Part shown: positions 11,161 through 35,000 of the stretch, one piece after another
Layout: every line of letters begins with the position of its first letter
Position numbering within the stretch: the first letter of the stretch is position 1
Assembly: GCA_027488815.1 (NCBI GenBank)
Contig: JAIYAX010000005.1
Location: 62,001 to 126,000, forward strand
Length of the DNA: 64,000 nucleotides
Source of the DNA: Cytophagaceae bacterium
GTDB lineage: Bacteria; Bacteroidota; Bacteroidia; Cytophagales; JAIYAX01
Direction: 5' to 3'
The notes under the pieces: generated by a model
The model's input: the letters and a program-made list of their open reading frames with translations, nothing else
The model's database searches: none
What the model was told of the DNA's origin: nothing
Program-made: the position numbers and the translations under genes

Positions 11161-14100
11161 ATGTGTTTTTTTGACCAAATCTGCAAAAGATATAAGCTCT
11201 TGGTTTTGCAGGGGCTATTTAGCTTACTAATTACCCCTCTGTACGCCCAGCAATCGGTGGGCATAGGCACAAACACCCCAAACCCAAATGCAGTCCTTCA
11301 ACTGGTAAGCCCGGGGCAAAACCAGGGATTTTTACTTCCTAAGTTAACGACAGGGCAAATAACCTCACTGGGTTTAACACTCGTAGCTGCAGACAAGGGC
11401 TTGCAGGTATATGACTCGCTTTTGCAACAAATCAGGTATTGGGATGGAAGTAGCTGGCTTACATTGAGTACATCTGCAGCTTCAGGAACTGTTTCCTCAG
11501 TAGGTTTAAGCTTGCCTGCCATTTTCAACGTCTCCGGCTCACCGGTGACGACTTCGGGTGTACTATCAGCTACGTTTCAAAATCAGGCACAAAACACGGT
11601 TTTTGCAGGGCCTACAGTAGGTTCAGCTTCTCCAACATTTAGGACATTGGTGGCAGGTGATATCCCTTCTTTACCTGCAACGATCATAACTTCAGGAACA
11701 CTCCCAATAGCAAGAGGTGGAACTAATGGAACAGCTGCTCCATCTTCCGGAGCTGTGGCCTATGGCACAGGTACTGCTTATGCATTTACATCGGCTGGTA
11801 TCAACGGTCAATTACTACAATCCACAGGCGCAGGGGCACCCATTTGGATAAATCCACCCGCTACCCTCACGGCAAGCAATGGCCTCACCAGAACTGTGAA
11901 TGACATAGCTCTGGGCGGGACGCTTAGCGGAGCAACCAACATAAACAGGGCAGGATTTAACCTGGTGGTTAGTGGGGCTGGTGATTTCAGTGTGCGTCCG
12001 GGAGGAGCCGGCTCCGAACGATTGTTTGTAAATGGGACCACCGGAAACGTGGGCATTGGTACCGTCACACCACTTTCGCCACTTCAAGTGGGGACCAAAC
12101 TCAGCATCTTCACTGACCCGAGCACTTCTCAAGAAGTTATTGCCAACAACGTTTACAATGACGGAACCGACTTTAGGTATGTCACCACCAACTCGTCCAG
12201 CGCCCTTACACTTGGTAGCGAGCGTGTAGGACTCTTTACATTCCCCATTGGCACAGCAGGAAACATCCTTGCAGGCACTCCAAGCATGCGCCTCAATCTT
12301 ACCACTCTTGGACTAGGTATTCAGGTAGATAACCCGCAGGAAATTTTACATATCAACGGTCCAGCTTTACTGAACCCTATAACTGCTCCGGGCACTACAA
12401 CAGGCAGGCTATACAATGTGGGTGGTAACTTGTTTTGGAACGGTACCAATATTTCAGCTGGTAGCAGTGGCGCAAATCTCACATTGAGCAACCTGACTAA
12501 CCCCACGGCTTTCAATCAAGACTTGCGCTTTGACAACAGTGCTGACCGTTTCATTGGCTTTCCGGCTGGCTTTAGCCCTTTACAAGGCCGCAGTTTGGCT
12601 ATTTCTGGAGAAGCTACCTCAGGAGCTGTTTTGGCGGGTGGAAATGTCAGCATATCCGGTGGATTTTCCAGCACAGGGGTTGGCGGTAGTGCAGGTATAA
12701 CTGGGGGTTCATCAAGCACGTTTGCAGGAGGTAATGTGGGCATTTCCGCAGGAGATGGTGGTGCACAGGGAGGAAGTACATTTATACGGGGAGGCAATTC
12801 ATCCGGTGGCACGGGTGGAAATATTTTTATGACACCTGGTGATGGTTTTTCGACCAACGGTAACTTATACTTGGCCTCAGAGTTTGGCCTTGGCCTGGTT
12901 GGGCGAGTCGGAATAGGTTTGAATGGCACCACTGAATCCCCTACTGCCTTATTGGACATCACATCCAATACCAGCGCTAGGGCTGCCCTTCGATTACGCA
13001 ATGGAGTACCACCTACTACACCCAATCAAGGCGATATCTACGCCGATGGCAACAGCGTCTTTTATCGAAATTCAACCAGTTGGGTCGATTTGGGTGGTTC
13101 TTCTAGTGGTTGGAGTTTAACAGGGAATGCAGGAACGACCGCAACAGATTTTATCGGTACTACCGATCTACAAGATTTCAGGATTAGAACCAATAACCTG
13201 GAGCGCATGATTTTGGCTGCCAACGGAAACATCGGCATTGGGGCAACCGTACCTCGAAGCCGCTTACAAATTGGCAGCCGTATGGGATTGGTCGCTGCTT
13301 CCGTGGATGATTTCAATGCACTCACCCGCAATATCTATATCGATAACGCTGATGATCCTTTCTATCTGAACAACGGCCCTGCCAATGTCTTGTTCATGGA
13401 TGACAACTTTATTGAGTTGGCCATTCATCCTACAGGAGTTGCCAATGCTGCCGTTTCAAGCCCAACGAGAAATCTGGTTGTTGGACTGAATGGAATAGGA
13501 TTAAACACCAACAATCCGATTTATCCGGCGCACTTAGTAGCTGGATCAATAGGCTATGGCTTTGTGCATGAAGGGGGAGGAGTAAGAGTAGGTACCTATG
13601 TCAATGCTGCAGGGGGCTGGCTGGGTACACAATCCAATCATGATTTGCGACTTTTCACAAATGATAATACGGGAAATTTGATCATTCAGGCCTCCACGGG
13701 TAATGTGGGTATCGGCACCACCGCACCACCGGAGCCCCTTTCGGTAATTGGGCAAATTGGCTGGGGTACCCCAAATGCCGGAACCAACAGGCTGCAATCC
13801 GATCAGGGTGGATCAATAGAATTGGGTGGCAATAACTTTACGGCTAACCCGCTCGTAGGTGCAGGCCCATACATCGATTTTCATTTCGGTAACGGGATTG
13901 CCGAAGATTTTAACTTTAGGCTCATTAATTCCGGCAACCGAATTCTAGATTTTGTTGATAATACAAATGTCAGCATGTTAAGAATAAACAATGGAAACAT
14001 AGGCCTTGGTGTATTAGCACCAGTTTCCAGACTTGATATTGCCGGCGATGTTCATTTAGCTGACATAGTAAACCCACCAGCACCCACTACTAATAAACTC

Positions 14101-16491
14101 TACAACAATGGGGGTAACTTGTTTTGGAACGGTACCAATATTTCAGGAGCAGGATTTAGTACTTTAAATAGTATTCCAAAAGGTAATGGACTAGGATTAG
14201 TACCGTCTTCAATTACTGATAATGGATCTGAAGTTGCCATTACAAGTAGTTCTGCTGGTTCAGACATTCTTAGGGTTGTAAATACAGCTTCATCCGCAAA
14301 TGTCAACATTCAAGGTACCGCAGCAGGAGGTAGTTTGATTCGGCTTTCTGCTGGCTTGCAGCAGACCTTTGTTTGGAGTGGCAGCGGTAACCTATTTATG
14401 GATGCCAATGCAGGTACTCTCCACTTACAAACTTCGGGAACAGACCGACTTTTTATCAATAATGCAGGTAATATTGGTATAGGCACTTCTTCACCGGCAG
14501 CCAGATTTCATCTTTCTGGGGCGATTGCCAACAACTTACAAGCGCATTTTACCCAAGGTGTGACAGACGGGGGGTTTAAACTGACCGCTTCCAACGGAGT
14601 GGCTGGAGGAGTAGGAACAAAGCAAGCTGATTTTGGTATGTTTTATTCAGGTTCAGGCTATGGATCTAGCTTTTCATTTTATAGAGGAGTTGGAGCTTTA
14701 GATGGCTCTATTGGAATAAATACAAATGGAGCAGAGAGGATGCGAATCGACAATGCAGGTAATGTAGGTATTGGTAATCCTTTCCCTTCCGCTCCTTTAC
14801 ACTTTGCCAATACAGTTGCTAATAGAAAGATAGTTCTTTGGGAAGCAGCAAATAACGAACATCAATATTTTGGATTCGGAATAAATCCAAATACACTTAG
14901 ATTTCAATTGCCGGCGACATCTGAAAGATTTGGGTTTTTTGTAAGTACCTCCTCCACTTCTAGCAATGAAATAATGCGAATCGATGGAAATGGGAATGTG
15001 GGAATTGGTACTACAGTTTCACCTAGTTACAGACTTCATGTTCAGCGAGCAGCCGGAGCAAGCATCGTGGCAGATATGTACAATAGCGATGGCAGCCAAT
15101 GGACGCAATACAATACGAATGCGGCACCTGGCTGGAGTCCAATGATATCTACTGGAGATCATTCGATACTTTACAGCAACGGCAGCCCAGAAACAGGTGC
15201 TCTATTTATAGGGCAATGGTCTGCTTCTGGAAGAGGGATCAGGATTGACGCCATTGGCAGGGTGGGAATTGGCACAGGTGGCCCTACAGAAAATTTAACT
15301 GTGCAGAATGGGATGAACATTGATGCAGCTGACGCAAATGCTGGCTCGATAAGCAATAGTATTAAATTCGGTTCAGCCTCCGGCGAAGCCATTGGGAGCA
15401 GACGAACTCCTGGCACAAACCAATTTGGAATAGATTTTTACACTAGTTCAGCAAGTCGTATGAGTATTACCAATGGGGGTAACGTAGGTATTGGTACAAC
15501 AAATCCGCTTGGAAGGCTTCATATCGCCAACGCCGATTACAACCTTTCACCTGTTCATGTAAGTTCCTCACTAGGCACAGCTGGAGCCACCATACGTTTC
15601 ACCAATCCCGATTTTGGAGCACGTACGTATAATTTGATTGGTTCCACAGGCAGCCTTTCAAACATGGGGGCAGGTTACTTTGGTATTTACGATGACAACG
15701 CTATTGCATATCGGTTTACTATCGGCCCTGCTGGCAATACGGGGATTGGTGTTGATGTGGCGCAATCAAGATTGCATGTTCAGGAATCAATTTCTGCTGG
15801 AGGACAATATGTAGGTCGCTTCATTAACTCTTTTACAGGCTCTGCTGATGGTGTTGCACTTTTAGCGCAAACAACGAATACCTCTACCAATTGGGGTATT
15901 GGCCTTGAAGCACGTGGCAATTACATAGGAGCATATGCATGGGGAAGTACAGGAGGGTTTACTGCATTAAGAGCTAATGCAAATGGTGCTACAAATGCAG
16001 CTTATTTTGATGGAAACGTGCAGGTGATCGGAGCACTTTCTAAAAGTTCAGGTACTTTCAAGATCGACCATCCCTCTGACCCGTCCAACAAATACCTTGT
16101 GCACAGCTTTGTAGAAAGTCCGGACATGATGAATATCTACAACGGCAATATTACAACAGATGCAAATGGAGAAGCAGTGGTTCAGCTCCCTGATTATTTT
16201 AATGTGCTCAACAAAGACTTCCGCTACCAACTTACTGTGATCGGTACCTTTGCTCAGGCAATAGTATTTGAAGAGATCCATGAGCAGGCCAATTCATTCA
16301 AAGTAAAAACCAGCGAGCCTCAGGTAAAAGTAAGCTGGCAAGTAACCGGAGTTCGCAAAGACCCATTTGCGAATGCCAACCGGGTAGTGGATGTGGTAGA
16401 AAAGCCGGCTCAAGAAAAAGGTACTTATCTGCACCCAGAGCTCTATGGCATGCCAGCCCATCTGAGACCGGGTAACAAAGAAAAGAAATGA
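11161..16491 (+). CDS. Giant secreted fibre-like protein 1 (VGIGTTTP repeats, non-S74 C-terminus)
   Basis: 1776 aa. An N-terminal signal (KLLVLQGLFSLLITPLYAQ) is followed by the module QQSVGIGTNTPNP...GFLLPKLTT shared with the other two giants. The body is a chain of about 13 units ending in GNVGIGTT.P-like turns, usually preceded by ERMRI, mixed with Gly-rich tracts (about 480-560) and the linker GDIPSLPATIITSGTLPIARGGTNGT that resembles phage tail-fibre linkers. Such repeats are known from phage-tail-like and trimeric fibre proteins and probably form a long beta-rich stalk. The C-terminus (VVQLPDYFNVLNKDFRYQLT... VSWQVTGVRKDPFANANR) is not an S74 chaperone, unlike giants 2 and 3. There is no T9SS domain, so how it reaches the surface is unclear. 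Function unproven; adhesin or sheath protein is likely. Confidence 0.85.
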   Translation: MCFFDQICKRYKLLVLQGLFSLLITPLYAQQSVGIGTNTPNPNAVLQLVSPGQNQGFLLPKLTTGQITSLGLTLVAADKGLQVYDSLLQQIRYWDGSSWLTLSTSAASGTVSSVGLSLPAIFNVSGSPVTTSGVLSATFQNQAQNTVFAGPTVGSASPTFRTLVAGDIPSLPATIITSGTLPIARGGTNGTAAPSSGAVAYGTGTAYAFTSAGINGQLLQSTGAGAPIWINPPATLTASNGLTRTVNDIALGGTLSGATNINRAGFNLVVSGAGDFSVRPGGAGSERLFVNGTTGNVGIGTVTPLSPLQVGTKLSIFTDPSTSQEVIANNVYNDGTDFRYVTTNSSSALTLGSERVGLFTFPIGTAGNILAGTPSMRLNLTTLGLGIQVDNPQEILHINGPALLNPITAPGTTTGRLYNVGGNLFWNGTNISAGSSGANLTLSNLTNPTAFNQDLRFDNSADRFIGFPAGFSPLQGRSLAISGEATSGAVLAGGNVSISGGFSSTGVGGSAGITGGSSSTFAGGNVGISAGDGGAQGGSTFIRGGNSSGGTGGNIFMTPGDGFSTNGNLYLASEFGLGLVGRVGIGLNGTTESPTALLDITSNTSARAALRLRNGVPPTTPNQGDIYADGNSVFYRNSTSWVDLGGSSSGWSLTGNAGTTATDFIGTTDLQDFRIRTNNLERMILAANGNIGIGATVPRSRLQIGSRMGLVAASVDDFNALTRNIYIDNADDPFYLNNGPANVLFMDDNFIELAIHPTGVANAAVSSPTRNLVVGLNGIGLNTNNPIYPAHLVAGSIGYGFVHEGGGVRVGTYVNAAGGWLGTQSNHDLRLFTNDNTGNLIIQASTGNVGIGTTAPPEPLSVIGQIGWGTPNAGTNRLQSDQGGSIELGGNNFTANPLVGAGPYIDFHFGNGIAEDFNFRLINSGNRILDFVDNTNVSMLRINNGNIGLGVLAPVSRLDIAGDVHLADIVNPPAPTTNKLYNNGGNLFWNGTNISGAGFSTLNSIPKGNGLGLVPSSITDNGSEVAITSSSAGSDILRVVNTASSANVNIQGTAAGGSLIRLSAGLQQTFVWSGSGNLFMDANAGTLHLQTSGTDRLFINNAGNIGIGTSSPAARFHLSGAIANNLQAHFTQGVTDGGFKLTASNGVAGGVGTKQADFGMFYSGSGYGSSFSFYRGVGALDGSIGINTNGAERMRIDNAGNVGIGNPFPSAPLHFANTVANRKIVLWEAANNEHQYFGFGINPNTLRFQLPATSERFGFFVSTSSTSSNEIMRIDGNGNVGIGTTVSPSYRLHVQRAAGASIVADMYNSDGSQWTQYNTNAAPGWSPMISTGDHSILYSNGSPETGALFIGQWSASGRGIRIDAIGRVGIGTGGPTENLTVQNGMNIDAADANAGSISNSIKFGSASGEAIGSRRTPGTNQFGIDFYTSSASRMSITNGGNVGIGTTNPLGRLHIANADYNLSPVHVSSSLGTAGATIRFTNPDFGARTYNLIGSTGSLSNMGAGYFGIYDDNAIAYRFTIGPAGNTGIGVDVAQSRLHVQESISAGGQYVGRFINSFTGSADGVALLAQTTNTSTNWGIGLEARGNYIGAYAWGSTGGFTALRANANGATNAAYFDGNVQVIGALSKSSGTFKIDHPSDPSNKYLVHSFVESPDMMNIYNGNITTDANGEAVVQLPDYFNVLNKDFRYQLTVIGTFAQAIVFEEIHEQANSFKVKTSEPQVKVSWQVTGVRKDPFANANRVVDVVEKPAQEKGTYLHPELYGMPAHLRPGNKEKK
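11248..11469 (+). repeat. Shared mature N-terminal module, copy 1
   Basis: Encodes QQSVGIGTNTPNP to YWDGSSWLTLS. The first 35 residues are nearly identical in all three giant genes, yet many synonymous codon positions differ. It resembles the short VGIGT...GFLLP.LT...YD....YW.G..W head found in many Bacteroidota fibre proteins. Confidence 0.8.
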
Positions 16492-16676: not shown

Positions 16677-19600
16677 ATGAAGCTACTACTACGTACTTCA
16701 CTAGTCTTTATTCCTGTTTTGCTGAACGTTTGTGCGGTGTATGCCCAGCAATCTGTTGGCATAGGCACAAATACTCCAAACCCCAGAGCGGTACTACAGT
16801 TGGTCAGCCCTGGGCAAAATCAAGGCTTTTTACTTCCCAAACTGACCACAGCCCAGATCACCAGCCTTGGAAGTTCGCTGGGGGCAGGTGATATAGGCTT
16901 ACAGGTTTATGACTCACTTCTTCAACAAATAAGGTATTGGAATGGCACTGCCTGGCTTACCGTAAGCACTGCAACATCAATGGGTACAGTCACTAGTGTG
17001 GGGCTATCCTTGCCTTCCATTTTCACGGTTTCAGGTTCGCCAGTTACAACTTCGGGTACGCTTACAGGTACGCTGGTAGCTCAGGGTCAAAACACTGTTT
17101 TTGCAGGACCTACAACGGGTACATCTACTCCAACGTTTAGAGCATTAGTGGCAGGAGACATTCCTTCTTTACCCGCAACAATTATTACTTCAGGGACACT
17201 CCCAATTGCAATAGGTGGAACAAACGGAACAGCTGCACCAACGGCAGGAGCCCTCGCATACGGAACAGGATCCGCCTACGCATTTACCGCTGCAGGCACA
17301 ACAGGTCAGGTTTTGCAAAGCAATGGAGTAGGCGCTCCCACCTGGGCATCTCCGAATAGCTTTGGATGGGGGTTGACAGGAAATGCAGGTATTAATCCCG
17401 CTACGAATTTCTTAGGCACAACAGATGCACAGCCCTTGCGCTTTGCCACCGGTGTTGGAGGAGTAGAAAGAATGAGAATTACCCCAACAGGGAACATAGG
17501 AATTGGAACTACAACACCTGCTACAGAGCTTCATGTGACTGGAAATGCAGCCGTGATAAGAATTGAAGGGGTAGATCATGCTTATCTGGAGTACTTTAAC
17601 GATGGCCCAGCAACCCGAACCGGGTGGATCGGTTATGGAGATCCTGCAGCAACAGCATTAAACCTAAGTAATGAAATTGGGGATGTCGCTTTTTCCTCTG
17701 GAGTAGGTACAGCCTTTGAGCGAATGCGGATTACCAATACCGGCGAAGTAGGTATTGGAACAATCAGTCCTACTGAAAGACTACAGGTCGCTGGGAATAT
17801 TCGTTTCTCCGGCGCACTCATGCCAAACAACCTTGCAGGTACTTCAGGCCAAATACTTACCTCACAGGGAACTGGTGTTGCACCTGTTTGGAGTAATCTT
17901 TCCGCATTAGCTTGGAGCTTGACAGGCAATGCTGGCACCAATCCATTGACAAATTATATCGGAACATCAGATGCCCAGCCCTTAAGAATTAACACCAATG
18001 GTGCTGAGCGTATGCGTGTTTCTGCTGCGGGTGTAGTGGGGATAAACAACACTAATCCGGTTGCCGGTAGTTTTAACCCCGCTATGCGCCTGGATGTTAG
18101 TGGTGCAATTCGAACCGCAAGGGATGGTGTAAATGGGGAAGAAGGGGGTGAATTTGCACTCGGAGAACCAAGCCTGGCCCCAGGAGGAGGTACAGGCAAC
18201 TGGATCATGGATGCTTATTTTGCAGGTGGAGTAAACAAAGTGAGATTGTTCAATACACGTACAGGTAACAATCATTTGAATATCACAGATAACGGAACTC
18301 CTTTTGTGGGTATTGGAAATTTTGGATTTGCAGAGGCTGCACTTGCCACTTTAGACGTAAAAGGTAATGTGAGAATAGTAGATGGCACACAGGCTGCGGG
18401 TCGTGTGCTTACCTCAGATGCCGGAGGGTATGCCACCTGGCAAACACTCCCTGCTGTAAATTCCTGGTCATTATCAGGTAATACTGGCACCGTTGATGGC
18501 ACCAATTTTCTCGGTACAACAGACAATATCGCCTTCACCATCCGCACCAACAATATCCGATCAGCAAGGCTGGAACCTGCGCTTAACGGAAACAGCTTTT
18601 TTGGCTTTGAAGCCGGGCTAAACGTTCCAAATGCCTCCACTTCAACGGCCATGGGATATCAGGCTTTGCGAGCAGCTACAGTTGGGTCTCAAAATACAGC
18701 TATAGGATACAGAGCGATGAACGTTACCAATAATGCGATCCAAAACGTGGCGGTGGGGATGAATGCCATGTTATTGAACACTGCCGGTAGCCAAAACACC
18801 GCCTTGGGTTATGGGGCAATGAGCGCCAATACTGATGGATTAAGGAACGTGGCTGTTGGAATGAGTGCACTTAACGCAAATACTACAGGCGATGACAACG
18901 TATCAGTAGGTTATCAAAGTTTGTTAAGTAATTCGTTAGGAAACTTCAACGTAGGCATTGGTTCTCAGGCTTTGCTAAATACCACAGCTGACAACAACGT
19001 AGCAATAGGTATAGGAGCAGGAGCATTCAATACTTCCGGTACAAATAATACCTTTCTAGGTCGCTCGGCCAATGCCACAGTAAATAACCTGACCAATGCG
19101 ACAGCAGTTGGTGCGAATGCTACCGTTTCCCAATCAAACACTATCATATTAGGTAACAATGCCAATGTGGGTATCGGAACCTCCACACCAGCCCGTCGAC
19201 TACATGTTCAGCAGACTGGAAGCTCAGGAGGGTTGGTGCTGGAAGCTCCATCTAACTCCGCAGCACTTCTTGACCTTTTAACCTTGGGTAACGGTTCGTC
19301 TCCTGTAAATAATCCAGCTACCAGAGGCTGGCAATGGATCGCCTATGGGAATACATTTGGCTTATTGGCTTTGCAGAATGATATGGCATTGTTTAGCTAC
19401 AATGGAACAGGAGGCACCAATGTAATGCACTTTGATGCTGCTGGTAATGTGGGACTAGGAACAACCGCACCTTTTGAACGTCTGCATGTGGGGGCCAATA
19501 TTTTCTTACAGAACGATCTAAACCTGGCGGAGGATAATGATCATACTATTAAGGTAGCAAACAGGACAACGCCTTCTGCCAACGGGTCAAACTTAGTCCT

Positions 19601-22541
19601 GAATGCATCCAATGCCGGATCTGGCGGGCTCGGAGTAAGTGGGGGTTCAATTACTTTACAAGCAGGCGATGCCTGGAACAATGGAGGAGCAGGATCAGGA
19701 GGAGCAGTCAATATCATAAGTGGGGGAAATTTCAATACAAGCGACAATCCCGGCTTTATCACGATGAGTACCAGAACAGGCACGGTGACGACCGAACGCA
19801 TGCGAATTCTGGCAAGCGGAAATGTGGGGATTGGTACAACTGCCCCCACAGCACAACTACATACCACAGGAGGAGTCAGATTTCAGGCTTTCACCGGTCC
19901 CGGAGTATTAACGGTTGATGCTTCAGGAAATGTAAGCTCGGTTTCTGGTGGTACAGTTGTTGGTTCGGGACAGATCAACAGGGTTGCTTATTGGAACACC
20001 GCATCTACCTTAAGTTCATCAACACAGTTTTATTGGGACAATGCGAACGAATTTTTGGGTGTTGGATGGTCTGCTCCTGAGCATCCACTTCATCTTCACA
20101 GAGCAGCAGGGGCTGACGTACTTTCAAAATATACAAATACCAACACATTTGTAGGCGCAGGAAACGGCTTTGAAGTAGGTATTTTGGCGGCAGGCGATGC
20201 CATTTTTAGAAACATGGAACCTACCAGCATGCAGTTTTCAACGAGTAATATCGAAAGGATGCGGATCTCTGCTGCTGGAAATGTGGGCATTGGAACAACA
20301 ACTCCAGATGCATCTTCATTAGTAGACGTTGTCTCAACACTTGCCAACACGATTATTTCAACAAACAATCATATTGGGGCTAGTAATAAAACCGGTTTTA
20401 TTACTACAGTCAGTGGAACTGGAACTGGTGCAAAGACTGGACTTCAATCTATTGTAAGCGGTACAGTAGGCTCTGCTGCTCAAGTCCTTGGATTTAGCAA
20501 TAACATAAATCCACAAGGAACCGGTACAACATTTGGGATTAATAATACTATTGCAAATTTGGGCACCGGAATTCGATATGGTGTATTCAATAATATATCC
20601 TCCTCAGCAACAAATACATCCATTATTTATGGAACCTTTAACAGCTTAGGAAGTGGAGGCCCAGGTGGAGTTATTGGGGACTACAGCACCATTAGCTCTG
20701 TTGCCACTACCACCGGGGAGCTTTATGGATCCAGATACGACATTACGCCAAATGGTACCGGTTTGGTAATGGGAAGCAGAACCACCCTATTTGCAGGAAC
20801 AGGCACCGGTCAGCGATATGGGTATTACAGCTCCATTGGAACAGCAGCAGGAAATGCATCGGCTATTTATGGACTTCATTCATTTATCAATCCAGCAGGT
20901 ACAGGTACCGTTTATAGCACTTACAATGTAGTACAAGCTGCCGGTACTGGACCTAGGTATGGCAATTATGCTCTTGTAGAGGCTGGTGCAAGCAATACAT
21001 CACCTATTTTTGGTCTTAATAATGATGTTATACCAAATGGATCAGGAAATGCTTTTGGGGCCTCAAATATTATCTCTTCGTTTGGAACTGGTGAGAGGTA
21101 CGGTACATATAACAGTGTATCAGCATCAAATTTGAATACATCAGCTATTTATGGTTTGCACTCATTAACTAATCATTCGGGCTCGGGTACGGTTTATGGA
21201 TCGTACATTGATGCCAATAAGGCAGCTGCTCAGCCTGGAACGGTATATGGTCAGTATGTGATATCTGACAATGATGGAACAGGGGACTCCTACCTAATGT
21301 TTGCTAATTCCATTGGAGCCACAACAGGAATTGAATATGGGTTATATGTTATCGGTGAAGACAGGAACTATTTTAGTAACAACGTGGGTATTGGCACAAC
21401 CATCCCAAATGCCCCGCTTCAGTTCTCCAATGCTTTGGTGAATAGAAAAGTTGTACTTTGGGAAGGGGCAAACAATGACCACCAATACTATGGATTTGGT
21501 GTAAATGGGGCTACTTTAAGGTATCAGGTGGACGCTACTGCTGCTAACCATGTTTTTTATGCAGGTACATCAGCAACTACCAGTGAAGAACTTATGCGGA
21601 TCACCGGCACAGGAAGGGTGGGTATTGGTACTAACGCTCCCAATAGCTTGATTGATGTTGTTGGAACTGCTACTGATCCTCAAACCATTGTCAATATGAC
21701 TTCGGCAAATACCTGGGGAACGGCACTAAACATTGGCAATTCTACCTCATCAACTGCTTACCAATTGGTAACAGCAGGTAGTGCACATCCAAGCCTTCCC
21801 TCAGGTTCATTTGCGTTAAGTTCATTAAGTTCAGGCAACTTAATCACCGTTGATGGAAGCACAGGTGACATGGCCATTGGCGCTTTGTCAGTGACAACAA
21901 ATAAGATTGGAATAGGTATCGCCCCAACAGGATCATCAAAAGTATACGTAAGAAATACAGATAACAGTTTCTCTGACGGAATGTGGTTAGCCAATAACAG
22001 AACTTCAGCCGGTACTGTATGGGGACTTTACAACACCACATCTAACTCCTCAACGGGCACTTTGTATGGTATTTTTACCAGTGTATCAGGAGGTACCGCT
22101 GCAAACAGATGGTCATTTTATGGCAATGATAAAGCTTTTATTACTGCGGGTACTTGGGGAACTTCTGATCAGAATTTGAAAGAGAACATTTCCGAGATAA
22201 AAAATGCGATCTCAATTGTTCAGCAAATCCCTTCTTATTCTTACTCATATAAAAAGGATGATTTATATAAAAGCTTCAATTTCCCAGAAGGAATTCAATA
22301 CGGATTTATGGCCCAAGATCTTGAAAAGGTGTTGCCAACCTATGTAAATGATAGTGAGCATTTTGTCCCAGAGGATCTTGAAAAGAAGAGAAAAGGGCTT
22401 ATTAGTGAACCGAGAAGCGTTCGTATCAAATCAGTAAACTACCAAGGCATTATCCCCATCCTCACCCAGGCCATCAAAGAGCAACAGGAACAAATTGAAC
22501 TCCTGAGGGAGCAAGTAGAAGAGCTCTTGAAAAAGCCCTAA
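16677..22541 (+). CDS. Giant secreted fibre-like protein 2 with S74 intramolecular chaperone
   Basis: 1954 aa. Signal peptide (LLLRTSLVFIPVLLNVCAVYAQ), shared N-terminal module, tail-fibre-like linker (TIITSGTLPIAIGGTNGT), about 13 VGIGT-type turns, a YadA-like head region (about 653-836), a Gly-rich segment, a run of YG-rich repeats (about 1272-1542), the NRKVVLWEGANNDHQYYGFGV module, and a C-terminal peptidase S74 domain. In S74 domains a Ser-Lys pair cuts just before the Ser after helping the fibre trimerise; here S1830 and K1835 in TSDQNLKENI fit, followed by YGFMAQDLEKVLP and a C-terminal coiled coil. No T9SS tail or beta-barrel anchor is seen. Probably a trimeric surface fibre or adhesin. 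It converges with the TMTC-like gene, with stops 4 bases apart. Confidence 0.88.
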   Translation: MKLLLRTSLVFIPVLLNVCAVYAQQSVGIGTNTPNPRAVLQLVSPGQNQGFLLPKLTTAQITSLGSSLGAGDIGLQVYDSLLQQIRYWNGTAWLTVSTATSMGTVTSVGLSLPSIFTVSGSPVTTSGTLTGTLVAQGQNTVFAGPTTGTSTPTFRALVAGDIPSLPATIITSGTLPIAIGGTNGTAAPTAGALAYGTGSAYAFTAAGTTGQVLQSNGVGAPTWASPNSFGWGLTGNAGINPATNFLGTTDAQPLRFATGVGGVERMRITPTGNIGIGTTTPATELHVTGNAAVIRIEGVDHAYLEYFNDGPATRTGWIGYGDPAATALNLSNEIGDVAFSSGVGTAFERMRITNTGEVGIGTISPTERLQVAGNIRFSGALMPNNLAGTSGQILTSQGTGVAPVWSNLSALAWSLTGNAGTNPLTNYIGTSDAQPLRINTNGAERMRVSAAGVVGINNTNPVAGSFNPAMRLDVSGAIRTARDGVNGEEGGEFALGEPSLAPGGGTGNWIMDAYFAGGVNKVRLFNTRTGNNHLNITDNGTPFVGIGNFGFAEAALATLDVKGNVRIVDGTQAAGRVLTSDAGGYATWQTLPAVNSWSLSGNTGTVDGTNFLGTTDNIAFTIRTNNIRSARLEPALNGNSFFGFEAGLNVPNASTSTAMGYQALRAATVGSQNTAIGYRAMNVTNNAIQNVAVGMNAMLLNTAGSQNTALGYGAMSANTDGLRNVAVGMSALNANTTGDDNVSVGYQSLLSNSLGNFNVGIGSQALLNTTADNNVAIGIGAGAFNTSGTNNTFLGRSANATVNNLTNATAVGANATVSQSNTIILGNNANVGIGTSTPARRLHVQQTGSSGGLVLEAPSNSAALLDLLTLGNGSSPVNNPATRGWQWIAYGNTFGLLALQNDMALFSYNGTGGTNVMHFDAAGNVGLGTTAPFERLHVGANIFLQNDLNLAEDNDHTIKVANRTTPSANGSNLVLNASNAGSGGLGVSGGSITLQAGDAWNNGGAGSGGAVNIISGGNFNTSDNPGFITMSTRTGTVTTERMRILASGNVGIGTTAPTAQLHTTGGVRFQAFTGPGVLTVDASGNVSSVSGGTVVGSGQINRVAYWNTASTLSSSTQFYWDNANEFLGVGWSAPEHPLHLHRAAGADVLSKYTNTNTFVGAGNGFEVGILAAGDAIFRNMEPTSMQFSTSNIERMRISAAGNVGIGTTTPDASSLVDVVSTLANTIISTNNHIGASNKTGFITTVSGTGTGAKTGLQSIVSGTVGSAAQVLGFSNNINPQGTGTTFGINNTIANLGTGIRYGVFNNISSSATNTSIIYGTFNSLGSGGPGGVIGDYSTISSVATTTGELYGSRYDITPNGTGLVMGSRTTLFAGTGTGQRYGYYSSIGTAAGNASAIYGLHSFINPAGTGTVYSTYNVVQAAGTGPRYGNYALVEAGASNTSPIFGLNNDVIPNGSGNAFGASNIISSFGTGERYGTYNSVSASNLNTSAIYGLHSLTNHSGSGTVYGSYIDANKAAAQPGTVYGQYVISDNDGTGDSYLMFANSIGATTGIEYGLYVIGEDRNYFSNNVGIGTTIPNAPLQFSNALVNRKVVLWEGANNDHQYYGFGVNGATLRYQVDATAANHVFYAGTSATTSEELMRITGTGRVGIGTNAPNSLIDVVGTATDPQTIVNMTSANTWGTALNIGNSTSSTAYQLVTAGSAHPSLPSGSFALSSLSSGNLITVDGSTGDMAIGALSVTTNKIGIGIAPTGSSKVYVRNTDNSFSDGMWLANNRTSAGTVWGLYNTTSNSSTGTLYGIFTSVSGGTAANRWSFYGNDKAFITAGTWGTSDQNLKENISEIKNAISIVQQIPSYSYSYKKDDLYKSFNFPEGIQYGFMAQDLEKVLPTYVNDSEHFVPEDLEKKRKGLISEPRSVRIKSVNYQGIIPILTQAIKEQQEQIELLREQVEELLKKP
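16746..16967 (+). repeat. Shared mature N-terminal module, copy 2
   Basis: Encodes QQSVGIGTNTPNPRAV to YWNGTAWLTVS, the counterpart of 11248-11469. The protein is almost the same but codon choice differs at many sites. Confidence 0.8.
18633..19185 (+). repeat. YadA-like head repeats in giant 2
   Basis: About 180 residues of 14-28-residue units such as STAMGYQAL, NTAIGYRAM, NVAVGMNAM, NTALGYGAM and NVGIGSQAL. This pattern is that of the left-handed beta-roll head of trimeric autotransporters (YadA head/Hep_Hag). A nearly identical copy at protein level lies at 31648-32190 in giant 3. Confidence 0.75.
20490..21302 (+). repeat. Three-part 47-residue super-repeat in giant 2
   Basis: 271 residues that divide into 17 short units of 15-18 aa, nearly all beginning with G and ending Y or F. 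Units follow a three-step cycle: one with a (P/A).GTGT.(F/Y) core, one ending GTG.RY, and one ending NTS.IY. The full cycle is about 47 aa and occurs about six times; the second cycle lacks its middle unit. The regular glycine and aromatic positions suggest a beta-helix or triple-stranded fibre segment. Confidence 0.75.
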
Positions 22542-25103: not shown

Positions 25104-25904
25104 TTGGAGGAAACTGTCCTTGATATTGCCAGATTGAATACACACTCGGTTGCCGAAGGTGTTTGGATGATCGATGAGATCATTTCTCAAGAACTGGGGG
25201 CCAATCTGTACCGGCAAGCCATGGAGCTGAAGTCAGGTTGGGTAGATTACCGGCATTTTATGGAGAGGAAATCTGCCTTTCAGAGCTGGGAGGAATTGCC
25301 GCCCGCCTGGCAGCAGGTGCTGTCTGAATTAAGCAGCAATGAGTTTATCGATTTCCTGAGTCAACTTTCTGGAATTGATCATCTGGTATTTGATCCTCAG
25401 TTAATCGGATCAGGAATTCACCGCATGGGTAGGGGAGATTATTTAGCCGTCCACCGAGATTTTACTCATCATCCATCAAAGAAATTGCAGAGACGATTAA
25501 ACCTGATCATTCACTTAAGTCCGGTATGGAAAGAGGATTGGCAAGGTCATACACAATTTTATGATGAAGCTGATCAGCCTCCTTCATTGAATCTTCGTCC
25601 TTCCTTTTGTCAAGCCCTTGTCTTTAAAAACGATGCATTTAAATACCACGGAGTTCCCGACTGTATTGATTGTCCAGAAGGAGTTCACCGGCTTACCTTA
25701 AGCACATTTTACTACGCTCCTGAGCCAGTGAAGACCCGAAAGAAATACACGTATTACCCACCCTTTCAATTTTCAGGGATGAAAATGCGCTCTTTGGCTT
25801 TTGCAGAAAACTTAATGATCACTATTTACAGCTTTGTAACAGCAAAGAACAGGGCTCGGCTAGACAAAATGGTCGGGTCTGTTATGAAAAAGTTGTTTAG
25901 TTAA
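25104..25904 (+). CDS. 2-oxoglutarate/Fe(II)-dependent oxygenase (prolyl 4-hydroxylase-like fold)
   Basis: 266 aa. The double-stranded beta-helix signature is complete: H117 and D119 in YLAVHRDF, H182 in KYHGVP, and the 2OG-binding R196 in GVHRLTLSTFYY. In the P4Hc-like family the enzyme hydroxylates an amino-acid side chain or small molecule. The residue after the distal His is G, as is common in this group. The track start is a TTG at 25104; an ATG at 25170 (22 codons in) is an alternative, but the intervening residues look like coding sequence. It ends 100 nt before giant gene 3 on the same strand, so the fibre could be a substrate; that is inference from position only. Confidence 0.8.
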   Translation: MEETVLDIARLNTHSVAEGVWMIDEIISQELGANLYRQAMELKSGWVDYRHFMERKSAFQSWEELPPAWQQVLSELSSNEFIDFLSQLSGIDHLVFDPQLIGSGIHRMGRGDYLAVHRDFTHHPSKKLQRRLNLIIHLSPVWKEDWQGHTQFYDEADQPPSLNLRPSFCQALVFKNDAFKYHGVPDCIDCPEGVHRLTLSTFYYAPEPVKTRKKYTYYPPFQFSGMKMRSLAFAENLMITIYSFVTAKNRARLDKMVGSVMKKLFS

Positions 25905-26004: not shown

Positions 26005-29000
26005 ATGAACAATTTTAGACTACACCTGTCCCTCATAGCTATCACGATCCTGCTTCCCGTCTTCAGCAATGCTCAGCAATCAGTCGGTATCGGTACGAAT
26101 TCGCCCAATCCAAGAGCTGTACTTCAACTGGTAAGCCCAGGTCAGAATCAGGGCTTTCTCTTGCCTAAGCTTACCACTACTGAAATTAATACAATGCCAG
26201 TGATAGCTTCTGATAGAGGATTGATGGTGTATGATAGCTTGACCAATGAGATTAAATATTGGAGCGGCACCTTGTGGATTAGCATGGGTTCAGGAGGGGC
26301 AACTAGCCTAAATTCCTTGTCGGATGTGACACTTACAGCACCTGCAATTGGTAGTTACCTTCGATATAATGGGGTTGATTGGGTCAATTCCTCCACTATT
26401 TTCCCGATAAATGAAACAGTTGCAGCAGCAGGCACGCAGTTTCAATTAAATCAGACAGGTCCTGGGACGACCTTCAGGCTAACCAATTCAAGCCCGCTCT
26501 CAACCGATTTTGTCATGAGTGTAGAGGCATTCGGAGATGCGATTGCTGGCTACTTCGTCAAGAATAATCCGGCTTCCACAAATCAGGCAATTTACTCCCA
26601 TACTCTTGGTACCGGACCGGCATTGGTAAGTTTTGGATTAGGTAACAATTCAACGGCAGCCAGATTTGCAAATACAAGTATTTCTAGTAATCAACCTTCT
26701 GTGATTATCGAAAATGCCGGAACAGGCTTAGGCTTAAACGTAGCCTCAGGTGGAGTTCGTGTAAATCGATTTGGAGGCGGAGGCAACAAAATGATTGTGA
26801 CCAACAACACAGGGGTTTTGGATACTGCAGCACTGCCCACCTCTCAGTGGATCACAAATGGGTCAAATATTTTTTATAACAGCGGGAATGTAGGAATTGG
26901 TACCATCACACCTACCGAGAGGTTACATGTCGTGGGAAATAGTCGAGTAACAGGTATCAGTTATTCAAGGAGCGTTGAAGTATTTGATACGTTAAATCAA
27001 GCTTCTTTTTTCAGGACCAATTCTACTGTACAGGCGCAGAATTATATTGAATTCAGTACGGGCAGATACAATGGAAACAACAATCGTACGGATTCAAGAT
27101 GGCAACTAGGTTTAAGCCAATTAGCTACACCGAGTGACAACGATTTTTTTGGTATAGGCCGAAACAACATTGGGTATGATTTTGTAGTCAACCGTGCTGG
27201 TTTTGTTGGTATTGGCGCAGAAACCCCTACAGAAAGACTAGACGTTGTAGGTAATTTAAAATTCTCAGGAGCCATAATGCCTAACAACCAGCCGGGCTCC
27301 TCCGGTCAGGTATTGACTTCTTCAGGTCCCGGCTTACCTCCAACCTGGACTTCCGCAGGAGGCTCAGGTACCGTTACAAGCGTGGGTCTCACTCTGTCCG
27401 GAATTTTTTCAGTCTCAGGTTCCCCGGTTATTGGCAGTGGTACACTGACTGGCTCTCTTATCAATCAGGCACAAAACACTGTCTTTGCAGGGCCTACATC
27501 AGGATCAAACACACCTAGCTTCAGGGCATTGGTGGCAGGTGATATCCCTTCTTTACCTGCAACGATCATTACTTCAGGAACAATCCCTATAGTAAGAGGT
27601 GGAACCAATGGAACCGCCGCACCAACTGCAGGGGCTGTAGCGTATGGAACTGGCACTGCCTATGCATTCACCGCTGCAGGCTCTTCAGGTCAGGTATTGC
27701 AAAGCAATGGAGCTGGAGCACCAACCTGGGTTAACCCTCCTGCTTCATCAGGATGGTTACTTTCTGGTAACACAGGCACTACACCTGCCACTCAATTTAT
27801 TGGAACGACAGACCTACAGGACTTACGTTTCCGAACAGATAATGCCGAGCGTATGGCTATCACTTCAATTGGAAACGTAGGAATTGGAGTTGTAAATCCT
27901 ACTTCCCGACTTCAAGTTCTAGCATCTGGAGGGCTGAATCCCGATGCAAATGGACTTTATGTAAACAACCCGATTAATTCCCCCGGTGAAGATGCAATAC
28001 TTACAACACGTGTAGCAGGTTCTAGTGCCGGTAACCCTTTTGTATCCTTTGACATCGCAGGAGAGGCCGGTTATTCCTTGGGGATTGACAATGCCGACAC
28101 GAATAAATTTAAACTAAGCGCCACATGGAATAGTCTTGCCGCCAGTCCTTTGATAACTGTTCAGCAAAATGGTTTCACAGGGTTCGGCACCTCCAACCCA
28201 ATAGATCGATTACATGTTGCCGGTAGAGTGCGAATTGTGCAAGGCCAATATGGTTTAATTCATACAGACGGCATTACAGAAATGGGAACCTTTGTAGATG
28301 CATCCGCAGGTTGGTTTGGAACCAACACCAATCACCCCTTGTGGTTTTACACAAATAATCAACCTTTTCCAGGTTTGATGGTCAGCGTTTCAAACAATGT
28401 AGGAATTGGTACCGTCAACCCTACTGAGAGATTGGAAGTTTTAGGCAACATCCGGTTCACTGGGGCACTTATGCCAAACGGACTGGCCGGAAATACTGGT
28501 GAAGTGCTCACCTCTGCTGGGCCGGGCTTGCCACCAACATGGACCGCAGTCGGAGGCTCGGGAACAGTCACTTCAATCGGTACAGGAACAGGACTAACTG
28601 GCGGGCCGATCACAACTACAGGAACCATCTCATTGGCCAATTCCGGAGTTACAATAGGCACTTATGGAACGGCATCAGCAGTGGGAACATTCACGGTAGA
28701 CGCCACAGGTAGGCTAACCTCAGCTTCTTCTACTCCAATAGCTATTAGTGCTGGCCAGATCACTTCGGGAACACTTCCTATAAATAGAGGAGGTACAAAT
28801 TCAACTGTAGCTCCGGTTGATGGAGGACTAGCATACGGTATTGGAGGGGCCTATGCATTTAACGCTGCAGGTACACCCGGCCAAGTTTTGCAAAGCAATG
28901 GTACAGGTGCACCTACGTGGGTTACTTTACCTTCTTTTTTAACAACAAGCTTAAACAATGGAAGTGTATTAGTTGGAAATGCCAGCAATGTTGCTACTCA

Positions 29001-32000
29001 AGTTCCGACTGGTAACTTAACGACTACTACCAGTGGATTATCAGTTACCGGAGGTGCCGGTGCAGTTATAGGAACGGGTGCGACAATTAATATACAAAAT
29101 GCCAACGGTACACAGCCGGGTTTACTCACTGCTGCTGATTGGACAACATTTAACAACAAACAAAATGCTTTTACACCGGCTAACTTATTGATAAGAGGAA
29201 ATTCCGGCGGTACAGCCTTGGTATCATCACAAGTTTTTGATGATGGTGTCAACGTTGGAGTAGGTACTACATCGCCAGCTTACAAAATGCAAGTTTCCGG
29301 CTCTCTTGCAGCAGTTGGATCAGCTCCTGCTCCTATTGTTAATGATGCCGGAACAGGTACAACCAATGTTTGTAACCCACAGACAGCAGGACAAGGATTT
29401 ACAGCAACCCAATCAAGAAATATTACAAGCATCGAGATAGATCTGTTCGGTGGTTTTTCAGTGGGTAATGTCACCCTTGAAATTTACAATGGCCTGACCA
29501 ATACGGGGGTACCAGCGTATTCTCAAGTATTTAATATAGCTGCAGTTCCTGCACAGGGCTTTTTTGCATTTCCATTAAGTACACCTTTCCCAGTAACCAA
29601 CGGAAGCACTTATGCCTTTAAAATAATTCCTTCCGGTTGCTTTTCGTTTTACAATTCAACCTCAAACCCTTATACCGGCGGGGACAGGTTCTTTAACAGT
29701 GTTGTATCAACAGGTTGGGATTTGGATTTCAGGATTAATTACCAAGCCTCAGGAGTGATTGCAAATAGCACTGGCAATGGTGAGTTAAGTTTTAGCGGGG
29801 CTTTGATTTCTAATGGGAATTCAGGCATTTCAGGCCAGGTACTCACCTCTCAGGGTTCAGGCTCAGCACCTATTTGGACCGCAGTCGGTGGCTTGGGAAC
29901 AGTCACTTCAATTGGTACAGGAACAGGACTAACAGGCGGGCCAATCACGACTACTGGTACTATATCTTTGGCCAATTCAGGTGTTACAGCAGGCTCCTAT
30001 GGTACGGCATCAGCAGTAGGAACATTCATAGTTGATGCCACCGGCCGACTGACCTCTGTAGCCAATCAGGCTATAGCCATCAATGCCTCGCAAGTGACTA
30101 CAGGTACTTTTGGCATCACTCAGGGCGGGACCAATAGTACAGCCACACCTATTGCAGGGGCCATCGCTTATGGGACAGGAACTGCTTACTCTTTTACCAC
30201 GGCAGGTACTATGGGACAGCTATTACAAAGCAATGGGGCAGGTGTTCCTACCTGGGTAAATCCCCCAACATTTGCCGGCTGGGGACTGACTGGTAATACA
30301 GGAACAGTTGCAGGTACAAATTTTATTGGTACAACAGATGCTCAGGATTTACGGATACGAACCAATAACATAGAACGCCTGGCAATTACCTCTGCTGGCA
30401 ATGTAGGTATAGGTATCACAAACCCATCAGCCCGATTACAGGTCCTGGCTTCGGGCGGGACAAATCCTGATGCAAACGGAATACTTGTAGCAAACACTAA
30501 TAACTCAGTAGGTCAGGATGCCATTATCACAGCTCGTGTTGCAGGCACAAATGCCGGTGATCCATATATTTCCTTTGACATAGCTGGAGAAGCCGGGTAC
30601 TCTTTAGGTATTGATAATTCTGATAATAACAGTTTTAAACTAGGTGGCTTTTGGAACGGTGTTGACGGAAATACACTCCTCACCATTCAGTCTGGTGGAA
30701 ATATGGGAATTGGTACAACAACTCCAAGCCAAAGACTAGATGTGGCAGGTAATATCCGCTTCTCCGGTGCCTTAATGCCAAACAACATAGCAGGTACAGC
30801 AGGACAAGTTTTGTCCTCCAATGGCGCAGGAGTTGCTCCTACCTGGGCATCTCCAAATAGCTTCGGATGGGGGTTGACTGGAAATGCAGGCATCAATCCC
30901 GCAATCAATTATTTGGGAACCAGTGATGGACAACCTTTAGTAATGAGAACTTCCGGTACAGAACGTATGCGCATACTTTCTGGGGGTAATGTGGGGATTG
31001 GAACTGCAACTCCTGCTTCCACTTTTAGCGTAGTGGGCAGGGGACAATTTGGAGATAATAGTTTGACAATCCCTGATGCGAATGACGATTTATATCTTGA
31101 AAAAAATTCATTTTATACGCAGATTCATTTAACAAACACAGATTTAGCCAATCCGGATATCAGCGGATTTATTTCTCAAAACAGAACAGGTGCAGCAAAT
31201 GGGATGGGCAATACTACACCCGGTTTTAATATATGGACTTCATCGAACCATCCAATACAGTTTGGTACCAATAGTTTAAACCGCATGACCATTTCAAGCG
31301 CCGGGAACATCGGAATTGGAAACGTAGCTCCAACTGAACGCTTGGATGTGACCGGCAATGTTCGTTTTTCAGGAGCATTGATGCCAAACAATATAGCAGG
31401 AACAGCGGGACAAGTTTTGTCCTCCAATGGCGCTGGACTCACTCCAACATGGACCAATCCGAGTTCTTTTGGATGGAGTTTATTAGGAAACGGAGGCACA
31501 GTTGACGGCACAAACTATATCGGAACTTCAGACAACGTTCCTTTTACCATCCGCACCAATAATATCCGATCTGCCAGATTGGAACCTTCCTTGAATGGAA
31601 ACAGCTTTTTTGGTTTTGAAGCAGGTTTGAACGTGCCAAACACTTCCACTTCTACTGCCATGGGGTATCAGGCACTTCGAGCAGCAACAGTAGGTAGTCA
31701 AAATACTGCAATTGGGTATAGGGCGATGAACGTGACGAACAATGCTATACAAAACGTAGCCGTGGGTATGAATGCCTTATTGGTAAATACTACTGGTAGT
31801 CAAAACACAGCGGTTGGGTATGGAGTAATGAGCGCCAATACAGATGGTTTACGCAACGTGGCCATGGGAATGAGTGCTTTGAATGCAAATACTTCAGGCG
31901 ATGACAATGTGGCCATTGGATATCAAAGTTTATTAAGCAATTCCTTAGGGAACTTTAATGTGGGGATTGGTTCTCAAGCCTTGCAAAACACCACTGCAAG

Positions 32001-35000
32001 TAATAACGTAGCGATAGGGGTAGGTGCTGGTGCATTTAATACCTCCGGATCTGACAATACTTTTTTGGGAAATGGTGCCAATGCAACAGTGAATAACCTG
32101 ACCAATGCGACTGCGATTGGTACCAATGCGAGCGTTTCACAATCGAATACTTTGGTTTTAGGCAACAATGCGAGTGTTGGAATAGGTACTTCAACCCCGG
32201 TAAGTCGATTGATGGTGGAAGGTACCACCAACCGAATACAGGCATTGGTGAGCAATAGTACGATTGGTGCCTGGAATGAGATTTCCAACACAAGCACCGG
32301 GGGTCAGGTGTTTTCAATGATTTCTACCGGATCAGCCAATTCCGAAGGAGTTGGTAAATTGATATTTACCCGCAATACAAGCCTTGGTCTTACCGCAGGA
32401 ACCATTATGTCATTGGTACATGCCACTTCTCATGTAGGTATCGGATCAACCACTCCGGCCAGAAGATTACATGTAGTAGACCCTTCCACATTCGGAATGG
32501 CGATTGAAGGTACCAATACCACCGGAACAATTTTGGATCTGTTGACTTTAGGCAATGGGGCCACAGGGGTAAATAACACAGCCACCCGGGGCTGGCAGTA
32601 TTTGGCCTATGGCAATGCATTTGGCACAGCCTCTTTGCAAAATGACTTGACACTGCGCTCGTACAATGGAACAGCAGCAACCGATGTGATGCACTTTGAT
32701 GCATTAGGAAATGTTGGATTAGGCACTACAAGTCCGACAGAGCGTTTAGAAGTAAACGGTCGCATCCAACTGCCCAATCAGGCCATCACTTTGGCTGGAA
32801 ACAAGCTATATGCCAATGGAGGTAACCTTTTCTGGGGTACAACTCAGCTAAACACAGGTGGCAGCCAGTGGATCACAAACGGTGCGAATATCCACTACAG
32901 TTTAGGAAATGTAGGAATTGGAGTCGCTACACCTGCTGAACGACTGGATGTAAATGGTAATATTGTTTTGAGAGAAGGCAACAGAACCTTTTCTGTAGCA
33001 CAGCCACCGACGAATGCCACAGGAGGCAGCTTACAATTAAAAGCAGGAAATGCGGGTGCAGGAGGTTTTGCTATGGATGGTGGCTCTGTCATTATTGAAG
33101 CCGGGCATAAGTTCGATCAATCTTTTGGCACCTCACCAGGTAGTATTGTCATGAGGTCAGGCGGTAATATCGACCCTTCAAACTTTGCTGCTAACCCTAG
33201 CGGTAACTTTGTATGGGAGTCTGGTGGAGCCAGCCAAGCATTTACAGAGCGTATGCGAATGTTGGGCTCTAACGGTTTCCTTGGTATTGGTACCAATGCC
33301 CCCACCGCCCAACTACATACCACTGGCAGTGTGCGCTTTCAGGGTTTAACAGGCCCCGGACTTTTGTCCGTGGATGCAACAGGTAATGTTTCTGTTTCTG
33401 GTTCAGCTGTGGCAGGCTCAGGCCTGATCAACAGATTAACTTACTGGAACACTGGTAGTACAGTTGCAGCTGGTTCTAATTTAGCTTGGGACAATACCAA
33501 CGAGAGACTAGGTATTGGCATTTCTATTCCTGAGGCTCCCTTACATGTACACAGAGGAGCTGGGATAGAGGTGTTGTCAAAATACACCAACACCAACACC
33601 TTCATTGGTGCTGGCAATGGTTTTGAGATGGGTATACTAGCTGCCGGAGATGCGATATTTAGAAATTACGAGAACACCAGCATGCAGTTTCTGACCAATA
33701 ATACAGAGCGTATGCGTATACTTGGTAATGGCAATATAGGCCTTGGTACCGCTGCACCAGTTGAACGGTTAGAAGTAGAAGGCCGCATCCAACTACCTAA
33801 TCAATTAACTACTGCTGCAGGCAATAAATTGTATGCAAGTGGTGGCAATTTGTTCTGGGGTACAACCAATATTTCAAATGGTGTAATTAATTCAGTTCTA
33901 CTTGGCGGAAATACCGTAGCCTCGACCATGAACATCGGCAGCATCAATGCTTTTGCACTTGAGCTACAGGTCAATAGCGTGCGGGGGCTGCGCCTGGAGG
34001 TTGGTACTGTACCTAATTTGATAACTGGCTCGCCTGCTAATACGGTGACTGCCGGTGTGAATGGTGCTACTGTTATGGGCGGTGCCTTGACCACTCAACT
34101 AAACACTGCGACTGATAACTACTCCACAGTGAGTGGGGGTTTACAGAATCGTGCCGGTAATAACTCAGGTACGGTCGCAGATGCAACGGCTGCTACTGTT
34201 GGCGGAGGTTGGCAGAATATAGCAAGTGCCACACAGTCAACTGTTTCAGGTGGTTTCGGCAACAACGCCAGTGGAGATATTTCTACTATAGGTGGTGGAT
34301 TCTCCAATCTTGCATCTGGTGCACGTTCGGCTATCACAGGAGGTGAAAGCAATACCGCATCCGGTGGATTGTCTAGCATTGGGGGTGGTTTGACTAATGT
34401 GGCTAGCGGTGCTCGTAGTGCTATTCCCGGTGGAGAAGGACTTTTGGCCCGGTCCTTTGGAGAAACGGTAGTAGGGTTGTTCAGCAGCGACTATGTTCCT
34501 GTAAATGCAACTGCCTACAATGCCAATGATAGAATCTTTTCCATCGGCAATGGGACTGCTACCGCAAGCCGTAGCAATGCAATGACCGTGCTGAAGAATG
34601 GAAATGTGGGTATAGGATCAACAAATCCTACTAGTTTACTAGGTGTTTATGGGGGAATAGCTCCTACCGCTGCTTTGGATGAAGGTGTATTTATAGACAT
34701 ACAAAATACTCTCGGTGTTGCTAATCATTTGTCAGGAATACGATTCAAAGTTAACTCAATTACCACCAACGAGCGATTCAATGCAGCTCTCTTCTACCGA
34801 ATGAATGCCTCTGTAGCAGGAGAACTAAACTTTGCAATCAAGCCAAACTCGATACCAAATATCAGTGCAAATGACATTAAAATGACTATTACAGAACCGG
34901 GAAATGTGGGTATTGGTACTACTGCACCCAATGCTCCATTGCAGTTTTCAAATGGCTTGGTAAACCGGAAGATTGTACTCTTTGAAGGTGCCAATAACGA

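Follow-up and report, generated by a model that had tools for sequence, protein, structure and literature searches.

Giant fibre 2, a predicted protein of 1954 aa encoded in the window (the whole stretch of 64,000 nucleotides analysed here, from a Cytophagaceae bacterium), carries an array of 20 short Tyr-Gly units that follow one another in a three-step A-B-C order, with unit lengths cycling 15-15-17 and a period of 47 residues. The protein is probably a three-stranded surface fibre, and we consider it fairly likely that the array forms the shaft or spacer of a trimeric surface fibre with one unit per layer or strand, its A-B-C order arising from expansion of a three-unit block. Nothing here points to a new kind of system; most likely, the array is an extension of a fibre type already known. 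The parts of the protein are as follows.

16677-22541, forward strand: giant fibre 2, 1954 aa, from its open reading frame and translation
20346-20393, forward strand: N-cap preceding the array, NTIISTNNHIGASNKT, which aligns to the LYIDNRYTGASNK-type starts of homologous domains
20394-21338, forward strand: whole array of 20 units from automatic segmentation, enclosing the originally reported stretch 20490-21302
20394-20438, forward strand: leading B unit
20439-20489, forward strand: leading C unit
20490-20630, forward strand: first complete A-B-C cycle, 47 aa
20631-20726, forward strand: cycle of A then C, B missing
20727-21152, forward strand: three complete A-B-C cycles in succession
21153-21248, forward strand: second B-less cycle, A followed by the C-like 17-aa unit GSYIDANKAAAQPGTVY
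21249-21338, forward strand: final two 15-aa units, A and B-like
21339-21407, forward strand: C-cap GLYVIGEDRNYFSNNVGIGTTIP, from alignment, which served as a search pattern
22164-22346, forward strand: Peptidase_S74 intramolecular chaperone, residues 1830-1890 (Pfam E = 2.6e-13)

Positions 20490-21302 form an uninterrupted reading frame of 271 aa, and cutting at the Tyr/Phe-Gly junctions divides this stretch into 17 units of 15-18 aa, as the original prediction had counted; coding on the other strand was rejected, the frame read there being full of stops. Residue autocorrelation reaches its maximum at lag 47 (z = 10.4 against 200 shuffles), with weaker signals at the single-unit lags 15 and 17 and the two-unit lag 32. 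For units 1-15, similarity within a phase exceeds that between phases by 14.9 (null SD 2.2, permutation P = 1e-4) when the skip is placed as in the original prediction, with the same test giving no signal at period 2, 4 or 5. The phase signal persists in a length-neutral version of the test (P = 5e-5 over all units, 0.003-0.005 for A versus B alone), so that the A-B-C cycle is not only an effect of length. The 47-residue super-repeat proposed previously is real. The array starts two units earlier than had been proposed, however, and ends at 21338, so that it comprises 20 units, each of 15-17 aa, arranged as BC ABC A-C ABC ABC ABC A-C AB. One unit had been thought missing, from the second cycle; a skip there does fit best (after unit 3 or 4, a model with no skip being much worse at 5.0 versus 14.9), but B is absent twice rather than once, because the former unit 16 is C-like, with 17 aa, and the former 18-aa unit 17 really comprises an A unit of 15 aa and the first residues of another unit.

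A units carry Pro at position 7 in four of seven cases and mostly V (V/A/T-like) at position 13, a position occupied by R/K in 5/6 B units and by I/V/L in C units, which are without the GTG turn and longer by two residues. Same-phase units are ~43% identical in DNA, and TRF found no tandem array in the DNA of the array, so that the repeat is one of protein level only and must be old; a recent amplification of the DNA was rejected on the same two observations.

Searches of the tblastn type were positive for the array in four out of 59 relatives and, within a phylum sample of 297 genomes, in six, and an eleven-domain profile found it in nine of 195 genomes of the order and nine of 396 of the phylum, the genome of the window being included in each count. 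The best conserved stretch of the domain family, as judged by alignment, is the C-cap. The 15-15-17 rhythm is shared by five genomes from the order of the window, Cytophagales, the window counted (G000, G008, G027, G043, and G449), and also by a Flavobacteriales MAG (L034), with the domains of G027, G043, G008, G449, and L034 following B-C-A after the N-cap, in lengths of 15-17-15-15-17-15 with few exceptions. Unit classes trained on the window alone were correct for 56 of 71 homologous units, where one third is expected, although the binomial P of 5e-15 assumes more independence than these related domains have. Two Flavobacteria-like genomes related at class level (G341 and G212) carry long plain arrays of 15-aa units, in which period 3 gives no signal (P = 0.84 and 0.92, respectively). 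As this comparison of ordered and plain relatives shows, the three-step order belongs to a subfamily and is superimposed on an older repeat of single units.

Further fibre proteins show the array, or units related to it, in other settings. L027, a fibre-like open frame of 3867 aa in G008, has the same A-then-C arrangement as the second B-less cycle of the window; exact-looking collagen-like GPTGAAGANGIDGNT... repeats precede its fibre modules, and its C-terminal array closely resembles, in sequence, the last part of the array in the window. Three array domains are found in L025, an open reading frame of 2110 aa on contig C163 of G027, whose C-terminus resembles another kind of end domain, with no S74 domain detectable in this L025/L032 homologue. 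The related fibres L035 and L036 contain many near-identical DTDNQTLSLSGTNLSIAGGNTIDISS units.

The repeat had been recognised as no named family, and its unnamed status holds in the libraries searched, because nothing in Pfam, NCBIfam, PHROGs, the PDB, or the phage and plasmid records matches across it. Pfam, NCBIfam, and PHROGs profiles run over the array and ten aligned homologues gave no meaningful E-value, with lone chance-level matches on single homologues (E = 0.07-0.09). No sequence match to the heads of YadA, UspA1, or BpaC was found in Pfam or the PDB for P0001, P0002, and ten homologues, none to the adenovirus-type shaft family in Pfam for the array or its homologues, and none to an autotransporter anchor in the Pfam scan. 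The one PDB profile match, to 4kh8 (E = 0.011, best stretch 0.15), was judged to be due to chance, there being no recognisable repeat, leaving no credible sequence match in the PDB. None of the phage and plasmid records carries the array, and no description of this Tyr-Gly A-B-C repeat was found in the literature. Viral contigs hold short C-cap modules only, and no arrays, which suggests that phages and Bacteroidota have exchanged the cap module. Two IMG/VR loci (L038:6133-6411 and L039) encode predicted viral fibre proteins in which two to four Tyr-Gly units accompany the C-cap GED.NYFSG.(V/I)GIG.T.P, the short Tyr-Gly/C-cap module of L039 directly preceding an S74-looking domain.

The identity of the protein as a fibre, assumed in the original prediction, is supported by its C-terminal S74 chaperone, which scores 50.5 bits against a curated cut-off of 22. 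The domain starts with SDQNLK, in which Ser1830 and Lys1835 have the catalytic spacing of five residues, comparable with the pairs S911/K916 of endoNF and S587/K592 of MYRF (PMC8326128). In solved cases the S74 domain adopts a trimeric fold and is then released, and a triple beta-helix typically precedes it (PMC4690869, PMC8326128). With both the domain and the catalytic spacing present in its sequence, giant fibre 2 can be classed as a putative S74 fibre protein. An N-terminal signal peptide, MKLLLRTSLVFIPVLLNVCAVYAQ, was called by eye, and VGIGT-type fibre modules flank the array. Of five S74 places in the genome, the array occurs in giant fibre 2 only.

The ten neighbouring proteins scanned comprise enzymes, a prenyltransferase, a TPR protein, and an FG-GAP protein with a type IX sorting tail, with no phage or injection-machine genes among them. 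A phage, plasmid, or contractile-injection setting was rejected, as there are no phage or plasmid matches and the neighbours scanned are ordinary chromosomal genes of housekeeping type. Two paralogues, at 11161-16491 (1776 aa) and 26005-35781 (3258 aa), are also giant, and have in common with giant fibre 2 the N-terminal module QQSVGIGTNTPNPxAVLQLVSPGQNQGFLLPKLTT. The 3258-aa paralogue has an S74 end in which the S....K spacing is unchanged (SDARLK), and it also matches End_tail_spike weakly; the 1776-aa paralogue has no S74 match and a different C-terminus. A second repeat block, of QNTAIGYRAM / RNVAVGMSAL type, occupies residues ~640-800 of giant fibre 2; the QNTAIGYRAM-type block resembles autotransporter-head repeats by eye, has a near copy in the 3258-aa paralogue, and is Pfam-negative. 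The gene immediately upstream of that for the 3258-aa fibre (25104-25904) encodes a 2OG-Fe(II) oxygenase.

AlphaFold2 was applied to two domains with shallow alignments (11 and 10 rows), and both models are of low confidence, with a pLDDT of 58.7 for the window domain and 54.2 for the L032 domain. Each model has one strand of about 9 residues (8-10) per unit, which begins in the final two or three residues of one unit, passes Tyr-Gly, and ends at position 6 of the following unit. Joins of ~6 residues connect the strands, with the GTG segment as a loop. The monomer prediction called for originally thus gives regular strands, but at a confidence (pLDDT 54-59) so low that the outcome comes close to no regular fold. 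Foldseek returned nothing significant (E of at least 0.43 in the PDB and at least 0.15 among viral structures), with UspA1 appearing at E = 7.8 only. The recognised PDB matches are mostly parallel beta-solenoids, none of them significant, and the best viral match bears a PIP5K-like name (E = 0.15, prob 0.41), which presumably reflects MORN-type repeats. With both structure predictions of low confidence, the fold and even the trimer of giant fibre 2 are inferred, as are its self-cleavage, surface location, and layer geometry.

In the reading we favour, the array would act as a rigid spacer or shaft segment in a secreted trimeric cell-surface fibre, with three chains folding together from the C-terminal S74 chaperone, which would then cleave itself off the fibre. 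Each 15-aa unit would provide one beta-strand or layer of the rod, with layers stacked upon one another by the conserved Tyr-Gly and by a hydrophobic residue located five positions further on, and with the turn formed by the GTG (or NTS) segment. The A-B-C order would be a second-level repeat, in which a three-unit block of 15+15+17 aa, its third unit having a turn longer by two residues, has been multiplied; this would lengthen the rod without any turn of a three-sided helix, and single layers could drop out. The S74 domain with its Ser and Lys spacing, the chromosomal neighbours, the rhythm in relatives, the success of the window-trained unit classes on them, and the plain arrays without period 3 speak for such a shaft, as do the single strand per unit in both AlphaFold2 models and the 15-residue layers of UspA1. 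Against it stand the low-confidence models, the absence of a significant Foldseek match and of a sequence match to YadA, UspA1, or BpaC, the modelled 9-residue strands, which exceed expectation for a roll of 14-15 residues, and the L025/L032 homologue without a detectable S74 domain.

The original prediction had instead suggested that one 47-aa cycle forms a turn of a three-sided beta-helix, or the three strands of one rung; each phase would then face a side of its own. Whilst the 47-residue period is strong, ordered, and conserved across genera, and position 13 is phase-specific (V/A/T-like in A, K/R in B, I/V/L in C), a B unit is missing at two places in the window and at one in L027, the same caps enclose 6, 7, 8, 10, or 20 units across domains, numbers not tied to multiples of three, and relatives share the basic unit without period 3. 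Furthermore, the low-confidence AlphaFold2 models place one strand in each unit, and a beta-helix turn of 47 aa, at 15 aa to each side, would be unusually wide, leaving the three-sided turn unsupported and, in our judgement, very unlikely. A triple beta-helix or triple beta-spiral of intertwined chains, with a strand and a turn per 15-aa unit, is unlikely. The 15-residue repeats with a Gly-rich turn recall the trimeric spiral of the adenovirus shaft (PMC7248032), a triple beta-helix is the element typical of the position before S74, as in the endosialidase stalk (PMC4690869, PMC8326128), and poor monomer models are expected of an intertwined trimer; however, there is no Pfam shaft match and no pointer from the PDB fold search, and the three-unit rhythm would be structurally meaningless there too.

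The strands and joins common to both models, together with the PIP5K-like best viral fold match, would also suit a self-contained antiparallel beta-meander, in which one strand per unit builds a long single sheet independently of a trimer. Given the low confidence of those models, the predominance of parallel beta-solenoids among the recognised, if non-significant, PDB fold matches, and the obligate trimers formed by S74 proteins in solved cases, we regard a meander as very unlikely. It is likewise doubtful that the 15-aa Tyr-Gly unit represents an undescribed trimeric beta-fibre fold, whose A, B, and C layers would alternate strictly for stability or to create a periodic binding surface, with small hydrophobic residues in A, Arg/Lys in B, and Ile with a longer turn in C.

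Under the favoured shaft reading, the array would join BpaC as the second example of a fibre in which a block of three layers has been multiplied, and would offer a modular rod for structural work. The repeat domain, unnamed in public libraries, is now defined by its caps, unit lengths, and phase-specific residues, and is shared by surface fibres from two or more Bacteroidota orders, which may aid the annotation of giant 'tail fiber domain-containing' proteins. To our knowledge, the function of such proteins in free-living bacteria is largely unstudied.

As in the S74 fibres of phages and MYRF, giant fibre 2 has a C-terminal S74 domain, with Ser and Lys five residues apart, downstream of a repetitive beta-rich fibre. 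Unlike these, its gene is bacterial and chromosomal and encodes a putative signal peptide, and its array matches no catalogued stalk and no phage or plasmid record. The heads of BpaC, YadA, and UspA1, left-handed parallel beta-rolls of trimeric autotransporters, resemble the array in strong positional conservation, and their short layers of 14-15 residues may have a counterpart in its 15-aa units, modelled with one strand each at a pLDDT of 54-59. UspA1 has layers of 15 residues, loop insertions are tolerated between layers (PMC9543794), and BpaC has gained a three-layer super-repeat by expansion, as is proposed here for the A-B-C block of the window. In contrast to these heads, the window array has no sequence match or Pfam autotransporter anchor, its unit lengths run 15-15-17, and its fold is a predicted one. 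The triple beta-spiral of the adenovirus fibre shaft similarly consists of 15-residue repeats, variable in number, in a trimeric shaft, whereas the window array has a three-step second-level order, a Tyr-Gly/GTG pattern, and no Pfam match. Because the sequence comparisons were negative, the array is classed as neither a YadA-type head nor an adenovirus-type shaft, although it may work like one or the other. Clear sequence relatedness is found with the plain arrays of the Flavobacteria-like S74 proteins L014 and L015, which differ in having nearly all units of exactly 15 aa and no three-step order, but are built from the same basic unit, YGxYNxI...GTGxxYG.
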